Assembly: GCF_900167375.1 (NCBI RefSeq)
Contig: NZ_FUWY01000007.1
Span: 62,001-126,000, forward strand
Origin: Anaerorhabdus furcosa
Lineage (GTDB): Bacteria; Bacillota_I; Bacilli_A; Erysipelotrichales; Erysipelotrichaceae
Direction of reading: 5' to 3'
Length of the DNA: 64,000 nucleotides
The notes under the pieces are model-generated. The model had not been told where the DNA came from and did no database searches. It was given only the letters and a program-made list of their open reading frames with translations. Of the stretch, positions 54,006 to 60,018 are shown in pieces (position 1 is the first letter of the stretch; each line of letters begins with the position of its first letter). The position numbers were made by a program, and so were the translations under genes.

Positions 54006-54839
54006 ATGGAAAAGCAATTGAATCAATTTTGTGAATTACTTAAGAATGAAGAAAAAAGTGAAAATACGATACAAAAATACAGAAGAGATATTCAAAAATA
54101 TCTGGATTACTTAACTGCAAACAACATGGATATTTCAAAAGAAAGTGTGATCGGGTTTAAAAAAAATCTTTTATTAAGCTACAGTGTAACGAGTTCAAAT
54201 TCAATGATTGTTGCAGTTAATAACTATCTTAAATTTATAGGTAGAGCAGAATACTGTGTCAAAATCTACAAACATCAAGAACAGATCTATAGGAAAGAAG
54301 AAAGAAGTTTAGAACTTAATGACTATAAGTTATTATTAAAAGAAGCAAGATTACTTCATGATGAACGTACAAAGAATGTTGTTTGTACTTTTGCAGAAAC
54401 AGGTATAAGAGTAAGTGAACTTAAAAGTATTACCGTGGATTCATTAAATAAAAGGCAGGTTGTCATTAACAACAAAGGAAAGATAAGAACGATTATTTTA
54501 ACTGAAAATCTAACAAAAAGATTAAAAAAATATTGTGAGAATCGAAATATCAAATCTGGTGCAGTCTTTATTACAAAAAGTGGGAAGCCAATTGACCGCT
54601 TCTATATCTGGCGACTTATGAAAAATCTGGCATTAAAAGCAAAAGTACTTCAAAGTAAAGTATTTCCCCACAATTTCAGACATTTGTTTGCTAAACAGTA
54701 TTATAAAAAGCAAAGAGATATTGCACGTTTAGCCGACTTTTTAGGACATAGTAGTATAGAAACAACAAGAATTTACATCTCAACAAGCAACCTAAATGAG
54801 TGTAGATTACAATTGGAAAAACTATTTTCTATAAATTAA
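54006..54839 (+). CDS. Tyrosine recombinase (XerC/D-like), candidate invertase
   Basis: 277 residues: N-terminal SAM-like core-binding domain (about 1-90, SENTIQKYRRDIQKYLDYL) and catalytic domain with R135 (TGIRVSEL), a beta-strand Lys near 158, H222-x-x-R225 (PHNFRHLF), H248 (FLGHSS) and nucleophile Y257 (TTRIYIS). The full catalytic set is intact. No phage genes are nearby. Its stop is one base before the left inverted repeat of the 240-bp segment, so it most likely inverts that segment. AGGAGG site. Confidence 0.93.
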   Translation: MEKQLNQFCELLKNEEKSENTIQKYRRDIQKYLDYLTANNMDISKESVIGFKKNLLLSYSVTSSNSMIVAVNNYLKFIGRAEYCVKIYKHQEQIYRKEERSLELNDYKLLLKEARLLHDERTKNVVCTFAETGIRVSELKSITVDSLNKRQVVINNKGKIRTIILTENLTKRLKKYCENRNIKSGAVFITKSGKPIDRFYIWRLMKNLALKAKVLQSKVFPHNFRHLFAKQYYKKQRDIARLADFLGHSSIETTRIYISTSNLNECRLQLEKLFSIN

Positions 54840-54840
54840 A

Positions 54841-54866
54841 ACAACATAATTCGCATTATGTTGTAT
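54841..54866 (+). repeat. Left inverted repeat (IRL), recombination site
   Basis: 26 bp, itself nearly palindromic: arms ACAACATAAT and ATTATGTTGT around an asymmetric core TCGC (54851-54854). Exact reverse complement of IRR. The arms resemble Xer-type half-sites. Confidence 0.88.
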
Positions 54867-54895
54867 TGAAATATTCCTCGCTTATCATTTACACC

Positions 54896-54924
54896 ATTTT
54901 ATCACCTAAATTTAACTAATACAA
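54896..54924 (-). promoter_or_regulatory. Promoter inside the invertible segment, facing left
   Basis: On the minus strand TTGTAT (54924-54919), 17-nt spacer, TAAAAT (54901-54896) with an extended TG. After inversion the -10 would lie at 55019-55024 facing the coiled-coil gene, start near 55031. Confidence 0.72.
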
Positions 54925-54946
54925 TTTTTTTTATGTAGCACAAAAC

Positions 54947-54980
54947 AATTAAGTTCTTTATTTCTAGACTTAATTTTTTT
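54947..54980 (+). terminator. Hairpin with T-run inside the invertible segment
   Basis: AATTAAGT (54947-54954) pairs with ACTTAATT (54968-54975) around a 13-nt loop, ending in seven T. It could block read-through from the recombinase into the coiled-coil gene in this orientation. Confidence 0.6.
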
Positions 54981-55053
54981 GTGGTTTTCGATTTTCAATT
55001 TCAGTTCTGCCCACCCATAAAATATAGTTTTCCTTTTAAATTAGTTATTTATG

Positions 55054-55079
55054 ATACAACATAATGCGAATTATGTTGT
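55054..55079 (-). repeat. Right inverted repeat (IRR), recombination site
   Basis: Exact reverse complement of IRL; core GCGA at 55066-55069. It ends 13 nt before the coiled-coil gene's AGGGGG site, so after inversion its palindrome would also form a hairpin in that gene's 5' leader. Confidence 0.88.
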
Positions 55080-55107
55080 ATTGGTCCAAAATAGGGGGAA
55101 TAATAAC

Positions 55108-58100
55108 ATGAGTAGATTAAATATATTTGGGATAGGTAAGAAAACTAAAGAGCTAAAGCCTAGCGATATTCAGTTAGAAATTGATAAAAAGGAAAAGAGT
55201 ATAAATCAGATAGAAAAAGAGTTAAAAAAAGCTGATGATTTAATCGAGAAAAACGAAGTGATTCAGGAAAAGGAATATAATGCAAAAAAGAAACAAATCA
55301 ATCAAAATAAGAAAAAACTGAATACTCTAATTAAGGGTGTTAAAGAAGAGACCTCACTTTTGGAAGGCAAAATAGAAAATCTATCTAAGAAAGCTGTTAT
55401 TGCAGATGAAAAAATAAGCAAGAAGAAAACTTCTATTAGGAATAATTCAAATAAATCAAAAGAGAAAGTCAAAGAAAAATTAATTGATAAAGAAGAGAAA
55501 ATAAATGAAGAATTATTGAAAAATAAAGCCGTTCAAAAAGAGAAATATTTAGTTGAAAAAGAGAAACTGATGCATGAATTAGATGCTGTAAAAGACAATA
55601 CAGAATCTGAGGCATTGATACGCTTAGAAGAGAAAAAAAGGGATATTAAAAATATAGAGGACCAAATAGAAGAAGCAGAAAAAAAGTATTCAAGAACTCT
55701 TCTAGAATTAGAAAATGAGTTAAGTGTTCTATTACAAAATAAGGAAATAACAATCGATAATTATAATGATCAAATTCAGCAATATAAACACAATCAAAAT
55801 GCTGAGTTGGAAAGTAAAAAAGTAGACCTTAGAAATAGAATAAAACTATGGGCTTTTGACTTCGATGAATATGCTTTAAAGAACAAAGCATTTTATGATT
55901 CCAAGAAAGCAGAATTAGAATTACTAAATCGACAAGAAGAAGATTTAAATAACTTATTAAAACAGAAACAAGACCAATATGAATTAGAGCGAAGAAATTC
56001 ATTACAAGCGCATTCAATGAAAATTAAGGAATTAGAAGTAGCTGAAGATGAGTTGAAAAACAGGTTAGATGAGATTCAACAAGAATATCGTGTAATAAGT
56101 GATACGTATAATCAAGAAGTCGAATATTTTAAGAGTAAACGAGATCATGAACAAGATGAAATTCAAGACTTTATATCAAAACTGAATCTTGAATATGAAC
56201 AGTACCAACAAGAAATAACAAGAAAAACTAATGAACTTGATGACAAACTTAAAATAGAGGTGGATGCTCTCTATTGTTTTTATCGTGATTTACTCAAAGA
56301 CGAAGAAGAAAAGTTCAATCGCCATCTAGACTTTGTTAAGGAAGAAATACGAAGAAAAGATACGAAATTAGAACTAGATAAACAACAAATAGAAACAAAA
56401 AAAGGAATGATTGAGAATGAGTACTATCAAAAGATCAATGATCTAAAAGATAGAATTATGACTTGTGAAGCAGATATGAAAAATGTTGAATCTGTTCATC
56501 ATGCACAATTGTCTAACATAAAGCAAGAGTATGAGAGAAAAATTGTGGAAATTCAAGAACAACTCAAATCGGAAGAAACAGAATTCAAGAAGAAAAAAGC
56601 AAAACTGGATGAAGAAACAAATCATTGTATTCAACAAGCAGACGAGAATAAGAAAATAGTACAAACTCTAAGAAAAGAAAATGATACAAAGATCGCAATA
56701 TTTGAGAAAGAAATCAAAGAATTAGAGAAATCGCAACAAGTTACAGTTGATGAGAAAAAATCAATTATTACACAGTTGAATAAAGAACTACTTTCAATTT
56801 CCAAAAATATTGAAGCAATAGAAGAAAAAAGGTTAATTGAACAAGGTAAGCATGAAGAAAGTTTAAAATCTTTAGAGAAAAAACGACAAGATTTATTGTT
56901 GAATCATCAAGAGAAAATCCAAAAATCAAAAGATAAGTTTCAATTGAGTATTGAAAAATTTGAACAAGAAGTTTTAAAGAAAAAAGAAGAAATGCAAGAA
57001 TACTATGAAGATAGTATCCAAAAACTACAAAGTGATCATGAACAACGAATTATTGAATTAAATAAAAATAGTGAAGAACTCGCAAAGAAGATCACAGAAG
57101 AAATTAGAGAAAGTCAATCAAAGTTGGAATTCTTAGAAGAAGAATACAAACTGAAAATTGATCATGAACAAAGTCAATTAAAAGATTCGCTAGCTAGATT
57201 AAGTGATTATAGAGAAAATTGCAATGAAGCGTTAAATAAAATCAAATTAGATAATAACAATAAACTTTCATTAATAAATGATAATGCACAGAAGAATATC
57301 CAAGAAATAGCAAATGAATTCAATAAACAAGCAATTGATCTAAATCAAAAAATCAGAGTATTATCAATTGATTTAGAACGTATGGCAGAAGAAGAAAATG
57401 AATTGGTTTTTCATATGAGCCAGGTACAAGAAGAATTCGAATCTAAGAAAAATGAGTTAATCAGCAAGAATACAAATGATTTAGAAGGATATTTAAATGA
57501 AGTTAATCAATTAGAGGAAGAAATTAGTTTAAAACGAGAAGAAATTAAACACTCAGAAGTAGCACTTGATGAATTAGTCAATCATTATCAGTTAATTCAA
57601 CAAGATGAAAATCAAAAATTAAACGAGTTAAAACGCGCATTGAATGAAGAATTCAACAACCAAAATCATGAGATTGATGATTCAATAGCACAACTTGAAA
57701 CATCAAAAGAAGAACGCATTAATTATTTAAAGACAGAGTATGAAATATCTAGAAGAAACTACTCCAATCAATTAAATGCTGAGCTTTTAAGTATTCAAAA
57801 TAAAATAGAAGATGAAAAGAACAGAGTACTAAGAGAGCAAAAAGAATTAGAATCTAGATATGCATTGAGTTTAGAAGAAAACAATCGCATTTTAAATAAA
57901 ATAAGAGATGAAATAAAAGAAACAACGTTAGAATTTGATAGAGAAAAGCAAAAATACGATGATGAAATTACTATATTGCAACAAGAATTTGAGCAAAGAA
58001 AGAATCAACTCGAAGAAGAAGCAGAACTTTCAAGAGAGAATAGTATTAAGCAATACAATGAATTTAAGAATGATTTGGTGGCAAAAGCAAATGCATTGGA

Positions 58101-60018
58101 GCTAGATAAGATTCAAGTTAAAAATTCAATTGATGCAAAGATAAAGCAGCAAGAGAAAAAGAAGGAAGTTATTGATAAATTCATTGAAGATTACAAGCGA
58201 AATCAAAAGATATACGAAGATGACAAAGAAAGAGAAATATCAAATTACAAAGTGATGATCAATCATCTAGATGAAGATATCCAGCATCTTCATGATGAAC
58301 TTACATCCGCAAAATTGAGTAATGAAGAAAAACTAAATGAGTTGTATACAGTTCAAAAACAAGTTGAAGAGCAAATTAATCAATTGACATCAAATCGTTC
58401 AGAAAAATTCCAAGAAGCAATTGATAAAGTAAAAGCAGAGCATGAGCAAGTTATTCAAAAATTCATTGAAGAGCAAGAAGAAAAGAAAAAGACAATTACT
58501 ATACAAAATGAAGAAATACTTCATAATTTCATTGCGGACTTTGAAGATTATAAGGAAAAATTAAATGAGCAATTAGATGCTAAAAAAATGGAAATTGATG
58601 AATCGATTCGAGTAGGCGAAGAAAATCTTGCGTTAGAAAAAACTAAACTTGAAAACATTATAACTACTTTACAAGAAGAAGAGAATAAACGAATAGAGCA
58701 ACGTAACAAAGAAAAAGCTGACTTTGAAAACTACTGGAATAGATCACTTGAAGAAATACGTCTACGGATTAAACAATCTGAAGAAAGAATGCAATTACAA
58801 AAAGATGAAATCTATAATCAATATAATCCGGAAATAGAAAAACTAAGTTTAGAATTCACAGAACTACAAAAGCAAGAAGAGAGTATAGTTCAAAATATTC
58901 AAGAGTTAGAAGAAAAATTCCAACAACGTAAATACGAAAAAGAACAAAAGCAGTATCAATATGAGAGTGAATGCAAACAAAATGTCTTAAATCTTGAAAA
59001 TGAAATAAATCAAAAACAAGAGAAGATTATTTTATTGCGTCAAGAATTAGAGCAAGAAGAAATTCGCTATAGTGATATTCGTCAAAAAGAAGAGAATCAA
59101 CTAAAGGCAAATGTCCAAGCAAAAGAAGATTTATTAGCAGAAGAGAAAGAAAAAATAGATAGAATAATTGGAAAGCAAAAGAAGATTTTTGATAAGCTAT
59201 CTGCAAAGAAAATAGCAATGATAGAAGAAGAAAATAAACGTAAGTACAAGATATTAGAAAAAGAATTAAGAAGAATTGAAAAGGAAAAGGCAAGTGTGGG
59301 TGAAAGCTTTGAATTAACAATGGATGAGCTTGAAAGAATGGTTAATGAAAAAGAACAACTCTATGAATCTTTATTAAATGAGCAAATTGCAAAGAACAAT
59401 GTTTATATTCAAGAATACAAAGAAAGAATTCATAAACATCAAGCAAGTGATGAACAAGAAGATGTAATTGAATTGAATAAGATGGAAAACTTACGCAGTC
59501 AATTACTAAATGAAGAAGAAGTGAGTAATGAAGAAATGGATGCGAATTTGCTAAGAATCAAAAATGAGTTCATGAACAATATCGCGGCCTTAAAAGAGAA
59601 AAACAGTCTTGTTTCAAAGGGAATAAGTAAGTTGCATAATGAATATGAACTGTTGGATATGAAATATTTCTCAGAAGATGAAATAGTAGATTATGAAGAG
59701 ATATTTAAATCATTTGAAAATGAATTAAACAGACGCAAAGCACAATTAAAGAAGTTGGAAGAGGAAGAGTACGATATCCACCAAATTAAATTAAGTAGTC
59801 AAGATAAGCAATCTGAACTCTATCAAAAAATGATAAACAAATATCAAAAAATAATAGAATCGCTTGATAATGAAATCGATGATGAACAACTACGCCTAGT
59901 AGAATTTGAGAAACAAATAAGTGAAGAACGTCGTCTTCAAAAGGAAATGGAAATTGACAACAAAAACTTATTTAATAAGAAGTTAAGTTTCTTAAAAGAG
60001 AAGAGGTATGACAACTAG
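55108..60018 (+). CDS. Giant coiled-coil protein (1636 residues), candidate phase-variable
   Basis: After about 25 non-helical residues (MSRLNIFGIGKKTKELK) nearly the whole protein is Glu/Lys/Gln/Asn/Leu-rich heptad sequence, with very few Pro or Gly and a short aromatic island near residue 250 (IKLWAFDFDEYALKNKAFY). No signal peptide, membrane helix, LPxTG anchor or nucleotide-binding motif is visible, so it should be cytoplasmic and lacks an SMC-type ATPase head. As one continuous coiled coil it would be about 240 nm long. The ATG at 55108 follows AGGGGG by 9 nt; an earlier in-frame ATG at 55051 lies in the inverted repeat and has no site. I recognise no family. Confidence 0.88.
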   Translation: MSRLNIFGIGKKTKELKPSDIQLEIDKKEKSINQIEKELKKADDLIEKNEVIQEKEYNAKKKQINQNKKKLNTLIKGVKEETSLLEGKIENLSKKAVIADEKISKKKTSIRNNSNKSKEKVKEKLIDKEEKINEELLKNKAVQKEKYLVEKEKLMHELDAVKDNTESEALIRLEEKKRDIKNIEDQIEEAEKKYSRTLLELENELSVLLQNKEITIDNYNDQIQQYKHNQNAELESKKVDLRNRIKLWAFDFDEYALKNKAFYDSKKAELELLNRQEEDLNNLLKQKQDQYELERRNSLQAHSMKIKELEVAEDELKNRLDEIQQEYRVISDTYNQEVEYFKSKRDHEQDEIQDFISKLNLEYEQYQQEITRKTNELDDKLKIEVDALYCFYRDLLKDEEEKFNRHLDFVKEEIRRKDTKLELDKQQIETKKGMIENEYYQKINDLKDRIMTCEADMKNVESVHHAQLSNIKQEYERKIVEIQEQLKSEETEFKKKKAKLDEETNHCIQQADENKKIVQTLRKENDTKIAIFEKEIKELEKSQQVTVDEKKSIITQLNKELLSISKNIEAIEEKRLIEQGKHEESLKSLEKKRQDLLLNHQEKIQKSKDKFQLSIEKFEQEVLKKKEEMQEYYEDSIQKLQSDHEQRIIELNKNSEELAKKITEEIRESQSKLEFLEEEYKLKIDHEQSQLKDSLARLSDYRENCNEALNKIKLDNNNKLSLINDNAQKNIQEIANEFNKQAIDLNQKIRVLSIDLERMAEEENELVFHMSQVQEEFESKKNELISKNTNDLEGYLNEVNQLEEEISLKREEIKHSEVALDELVNHYQLIQQDENQKLNELKRALNEEFNNQNHEIDDSIAQLETSKEERINYLKTEYEISRRNYSNQLNAELLSIQNKIEDEKNRVLREQKELESRYALSLEENNRILNKIRDEIKETTLEFDREKQKYDDEITILQQEFEQRKNQLEEEAELSRENSIKQYNEFKNDLVAKANALELDKIQVKNSIDAKIKQQEKKKEVIDKFIEDYKRNQKIYEDDKEREISNYKVMINHLDEDIQHLHDELTSAKLSNEEKLNELYTVQKQVEEQINQLTSNRSEKFQEAIDKVKAEHEQVIQKFIEEQEEKKKTITIQNEEILHNFIADFEDYKEKLNEQLDAKKMEIDESIRVGEENLALEKTKLENIITTLQEEENKRIEQRNKEKADFENYWNRSLEEIRLRIKQSEERMQLQKDEIYNQYNPEIEKLSLEFTELQKQEESIVQNIQELEEKFQQRKYEKEQKQYQYESECKQNVLNLENEINQKQEKIILLRQELEQEEIRYSDIRQKEENQLKANVQAKEDLLAEEKEKIDRIIGKQKKIFDKLSAKKIAMIEEENKRKYKILEKELRRIEKEKASVGESFELTMDELERMVNEKEQLYESLLNEQIAKNNVYIQEYKERIHKHQASDEQEDVIELNKMENLRSQLLNEEEVSNEEMDANLLRIKNEFMNNIAALKEKNSLVSKGISKLHNEYELLDMKYFSEDEIVDYEEIFKSFENELNRRKAQLKKLEEEEYDIHQIKLSSQDKQSELYQKMINKYQKIIESLDNEIDDEQLRLVEFEKQISEERRLQKEMEIDNKNLFNKKLSFLKEKRYDN

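Follow-up and report, generated by a model that had tools for sequence, protein, structure and literature searches.

A probable recombinase-linked invertible promoter before a giant coiled-coil gene, and a family of spacer-matched switches in gut bacteria

Switches in which a piece of promoter DNA is flipped by an enzyme encoded next to it are already known, and their usual target is a surface protein. For the hCom2 gut community, one study describes an inverton group (group 139) of 33 invertons, 32 of them in Clostridia, which is tied to a tyrosine recombinase; one of its members, with 26-bp repeats 205 bp apart, showed read-based shifts of orientation over passages (PMC11892184). Here we describe a locus with a similar layout in a window of 64,000 nucleotides, to which all positions refer unless another contig is named. 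The best explanation of this locus is, with high likelihood, a recombinase-linked invertible promoter (inverton) that phase-varies the gene of a giant coiled-coil protein.

The presumed invertase is a tyrosine recombinase of 277 aa (54006-54839, forward strand) with an intact reading frame, a match to PF00589 (E = 2.6e-27) and a complete catalytic set (R135, K157/K159, H222, R225, H248 and Y257); its top match in PDB was the XerA-like 4a8e (E = 6.6e-23). The initial annotation had it ending one base before a 26-bp exact inverted repeat, which proved right to the base: the left recombination site (54841-54866) begins one base past the stop codon, so that the cognate recombinase is directly adjacent, and the right site (55054-55079) is its exact reverse complement over 26 bp (97% match when extended to 29 nt). 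Each site is a dyad with arms ATACAACATAAT / ATTATGTTGTAT flanking a 4-nt spacer. The cores, ACATAAT-TCGC-ATTATGT at 54844-54861 and ACATAAT-GCGA-ATTATGT at 55059-55076, carry spacers that are asymmetric and mutually inverted, as in an inverton and as already noticed in the initial annotation, and they are seen within the exact repeats. The whole putative invertible segment (54841-55079) is noncoding and measures 239 bp counting both sites, with about 190 bp of noncoding DNA between the repeats. The start codon of the coiled-coil gene (55108) is located 28 bp downstream of the right repeat; its frame is open in the 5' direction to 55051, through the repeat, and the start with a likely ribosome-binding site (AGGGGG, 55093-55098, forward strand, 9 nt ahead of the ATG) is that at 55108.

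The same core, ACATAATNNNNATTATGT (ACATAAT-NNNN-ATTATGT), occurs without mismatch exactly six times in the 2.41-Mb source genome, all of the copies falling into three pairs 214-217 bp apart. Spacers are reverse-complementary within each pair: TCGC/GCGA in the window (contig C9), TATC/GATA at C4:196113 and 196330, and GTAA/TTAC at C7:123125 and 123339. The three closest recombinase paralogs are distributed one to each of these paired-site loci. Because of how tyrosine recombinases work, no recombination is expected between pairs whose spacers differ. The C4 cassette (C4:195269-196590; L027:7270-8584) has a window-like layout, its sole nearby target being a 71-aa ORF of no known family. In the C7 cassette (C7:120505-126700; L028:4506-10684), a LuxR/MalT-like regulator separates the recombinase from the invertible segment; the segment fronts a BspA-like leucine-rich surface protein as its target, with a GGDEF-EAL protein after it.

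Within the window segment, a candidate promoter (TTGTAT-N17-TAAAAT with a TG extended -10; 54896-54924, reverse strand) faces the recombinase. The leftward extended -10 promoter proposed in the initial annotation stood when scored with a family promoter model of 40 positions, trained on 46 promoters of other cassettes with the window's own promoter excluded, and did not stand out by a generic sigma-70 matrix, with which shuffled versions of the segment scored as well. Its score with the family-trained model was 9.3, where the best-of-segment null reached 6.2 at the 95% and 10.7 at the 99% level; the best rightward site in the segment scored just -3.0. It is placed 34 nt from a site, inside the family's 33-39 nt cluster; score and distance together support a promoter inside the segment, on which the generic matrix was indecisive. 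Next to it, at about 54936-54985 on the forward strand, a terminator-like hairpin with a T7 run in its 3' side (fold -14.1 kcal/mol, z = -5.4) is best placed to halt rightward transcription in the assembled orientation, as the initial annotation had suggested; a simple terminator scan of the window did not list the hairpin (54939-54983). Because the family model points the promoter leftward and the hairpin opposes rightward transcription, the present orientation is probably OFF for the coiled-coil gene, in line with the state first assigned to it. Terminator polarity as a general marker of switch state was dropped as too noisy, since across the family it tracks promoter polarity only loosely.

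Inversion of the segment would carry the promoter to 54996-55024 on the forward strand, with its -10 at 55019-55024, about 76 nt upstream of the ATG at 55108; these recomputed coordinates agree with those originally proposed. In the mechanism that we favour, the recombinase would bind each site at its 12-bp dyad arms, and strand exchange inside the asymmetric 4-nt spacer would flip the 239-bp segment. As assembled, the promoter would fire leftward, antisense to the recombinase, and the T-run hairpin would end rightward transcription, leaving the target OFF; after inversion, transcription would begin about 76 nt ahead of the coiled-coil start codon and the target would be ON. Most likely, some of the cells would then produce one more subunit for a stiff rod inside the cell, in addition to the two paralogs encoded at fixed loci. 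This course of events is one that we infer, from inversion of the window copy and the rate of flipping to the start of transcription and the consequences for the cell.

Alternatively, the family may invert while the window copy is locked or nearly so, with the coiled-coil gene silent or expressed from elsewhere. The window orientation is known from one assembly and its promoter is near the detection limit by the generic matrix, which would suit a locked copy; however, the recombinase frame and catalytic residues are intact, the sites are perfect over 26 bp, and the coiled-coil start and its ribosome-binding site are preserved, all of which makes this reading unlikely.

The arrangement recurs in other genomes. 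One genome from each of 84,980 species was searched for two cores at a distance of 182-212 bp, with the spacers left free; this gave 104 two-site pairs, nearly all in Clostridia of the animal gut. Spacers were exact reverse complements in 101 of these pairs (chance expectation 1 in 256 per pair) and comprised 53 distinct sequences; they match inside a pair yet vary freely from pair to pair. When the two-site pattern was reversed as a control, there were 0 matches among the genomes listed, of 273 searched. Bases directly outside the searched core were conserved too (ACnACATAATnnnnATTATGTnGTAA). A recombinase homolog accompanied 82 of the 104 pairs; its 3' end pointed at the segment, usually from at most 100 bp away. 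For 12 of the 22 pairs lacking one, less than 700 bp of sequence was available on one side. At L063, L087, L095, L100, L109, L131, L140, L145, L147 and L149, paired sites with flanks present had no recombinase nearby; such pairs may be served by a recombinase elsewhere, and L140 may be a chance match. Three further recombinases were encountered on large plasmid records, two of them (L166 and L167) with the core and inverted spacers alongside and one (L165) with a different repeat. We make no claim that distinct spacers are selected for in a genome, since L055/L066 and L097/L115, each couple from one MAG, share spacers. A literature search on the site motif returned nothing relevant.

Homologous segments exist in both orientations beside colinear recombinases. 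Within MAG SIG626, the L097 segment reached 87% identity with L151 and 81% with L115 once these were inverted, compared with 48% and 50% for the uninverted sequences, while the 300 bp on the recombinase side of these three loci were colinear and 94-95% identical. Similarly, L088 and L103, which come from different MAGs, agreed at 75% of positions when one was inverted and at 54% otherwise. Same-genus genomes of two relatives yielded no near-identical inverted cassette. Sigma-70-like promoters (score of 11 or more) were present in 57% of segments versus 4.7% of shuffles, the strong ones mostly 24-39 nt from one site, and where direction was clear, 36 cassettes had the promoter pointing away from the target (OFF) and 11 towards it (ON). 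Taken together, recurrence, spacer matching and the occurrence of both orientations indicate a real family of recombinase-linked invertible promoters. The original claim of a phase switch is thereby strengthened, the combination of recombinase, paired sites and promoter recurring in about 100 places.

The same observations bear on a second alternative, in which the sites are mere operators, bound by the recombinase or another protein for transcription control and involving no inversion. Taken singly, the sites are near-perfect palindromes, which would suit an operator, but asymmetric spacers matched inversely in nearly all pairs would be superfluous for an operator, and homologous segments would not be expected in both orientations; we consider this highly improbable. 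In a tree with midpoint rooting and some long branches, the cassette recombinases group as a single clade (99/91), with Xer-like sequences and PsrA outside it. The window enzyme is under every NCBIfam Xer cut-off (XerD model, 114.6 versus 329.6 bits; XerC, 108 versus 335), which argues against Xer membership. That recombinase and repeats are a remnant of an integrative mobile element or a dif/Xer site is the least credible reading of all, the recombinase being Xer-like in sequence but below those cut-offs and in a separate clade, the repeats inverted rather than direct around a short noncoding interval, and the two-site pattern unmatched in 2.9 million viral contigs.

The target of the probable inverton (55108-60018, forward strand) encodes a 1636-aa uninterrupted alpha-helical rod protein without a signal peptide or Pfam family and with two prolines. 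Its hydrophobic period is 3.604 residues, which differs from the usual 3.5-residue heptad, with the phase kept along most of the chain, and autocorrelation at lags of 7, 11, 18, 36 and 54 is seen in this protein and in both of its paralogs. The pattern fits an 18-residue (7+11) repeat forming an almost straight bundle of helices; the rod would be about 240 nm long if fully helical, and it could co-assemble with its paralogs. The latter are full length and are encoded at C5:135092-139999 (46% identity; L159), adjoining tig-lon-engB, and C5:145027-149931 (26% identity; L160), about 5 kb apart; neither adjoins a paired site, so that both are non-switched loci. The former aligns to the window protein over 1636 positions with a single 7-residue gap and none that is internal. 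No relatives were detected in 316 genomes of the order outside the source genome, and no Pfam, NCBIfam or PDB sequence match was obtained; this absence of relatives is provisional because coiled-coil sequences are hard to search. A phage tail tape-measure reading was without support, as no match among phages was found. Literature searches returned lamin papers only for 18-residue periodicity, and nothing relevant for phase-variable coiled-coil proteins.

Elsewhere in the family, a crude hydrophobicity test assigned a signal or membrane-like N-terminus to 32 of 56 nearby targets. Cytoplasmic targets of other cassettes include CpsB/CapC, NusG-like, LytTR regulator, SPFH-zinc ribbon, YpsA-like and helicase proteins, and phosphodiesterase genes of C. 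difficile are phase-variable (PMC9286219). The initial annotation suggested that a cytoplasmic coiled-coil target would be new; cytoplasmic targets as such are consequently not new, whereas a structural rod as a target does look new; none of the window protein's kind was seen among the targets inspected. In two Merdimonas MAGs (L057 and L157) a CpsB/CapC capsule gene lies downstream of the switch, with the promoter apparently ON in both, and in two Oscillospiraceae MAGs (L068 and L104) the gene downstream of it encodes an SPFH (band 7) protein that carries zinc ribbons.

It is conceivable, and we put it forward tentatively, that an internal rod is phase-varied here: inversion would add or remove a straight helical subunit of 1636 residues (some 240 nm long when helical throughout), which would assemble in register together with the full-length, non-switched paralogs, generating subpopulations which differ in internal architecture or cell shape and not at the surface. 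If true, phase variation of a rod protein inside the cell would be a novelty. Should the window copy flip, phase variation would extend to a structural protein of the cell interior, past its usual surface and signalling targets. The family itself is a sequence-defined and widespread kind of switch, of gut Clostridia and Erysipelotrichaceae-type bacteria, with a simple rule of fixed arms and a free asymmetric 4-nt spacer; new members are findable from assemblies alone, and unlike-spacer switches within one genome should not cross.

Among described systems, inverton group 139 and invertase group 35 of hCom2 share with the window family both geometry and an adjacent tyrosine-type recombinase (PMC11892184). 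Group 139 is found in Clostridia, whereas the window's organism groups with Erysipelotrichaceae. To judge by geometry and recombinase adjacency, the window family is probably the same as group 139 or overlaps it. The RecV switches of C. difficile (cwpV and flagellar) likewise have short inverted repeats upstream of a gene and a tyrosine recombinase, and by description the same arrangement applies to other phase-variable loci of that species (cmr and pdcB; PMC5903667, PMC9286219). RecV, however, serves several distant switches, while the window family has one recombinase at each switch. PsrA of streptococci is a tyrosine DNA invertase encoded beside its own inverted repeats, as in the window, but it swaps hsdS coding parts and not a promoter (PMC7096588), and it falls outside the clade of cassette recombinases. 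Invertible promoters of Bacteroides (group 131 and others) also carry the promoter within the invertible segment, but with other repeat motifs, another promoter type and mainly capsule and surface genes as targets. As regards the target, the likeness to bacterial coiled-coil cytoskeletal filament proteins is one of shape only, sequence homology to a characterised member not being found. In sum, the promoter switch in the window is real, belongs to a known kind and is probably active; what is unusual is its target.
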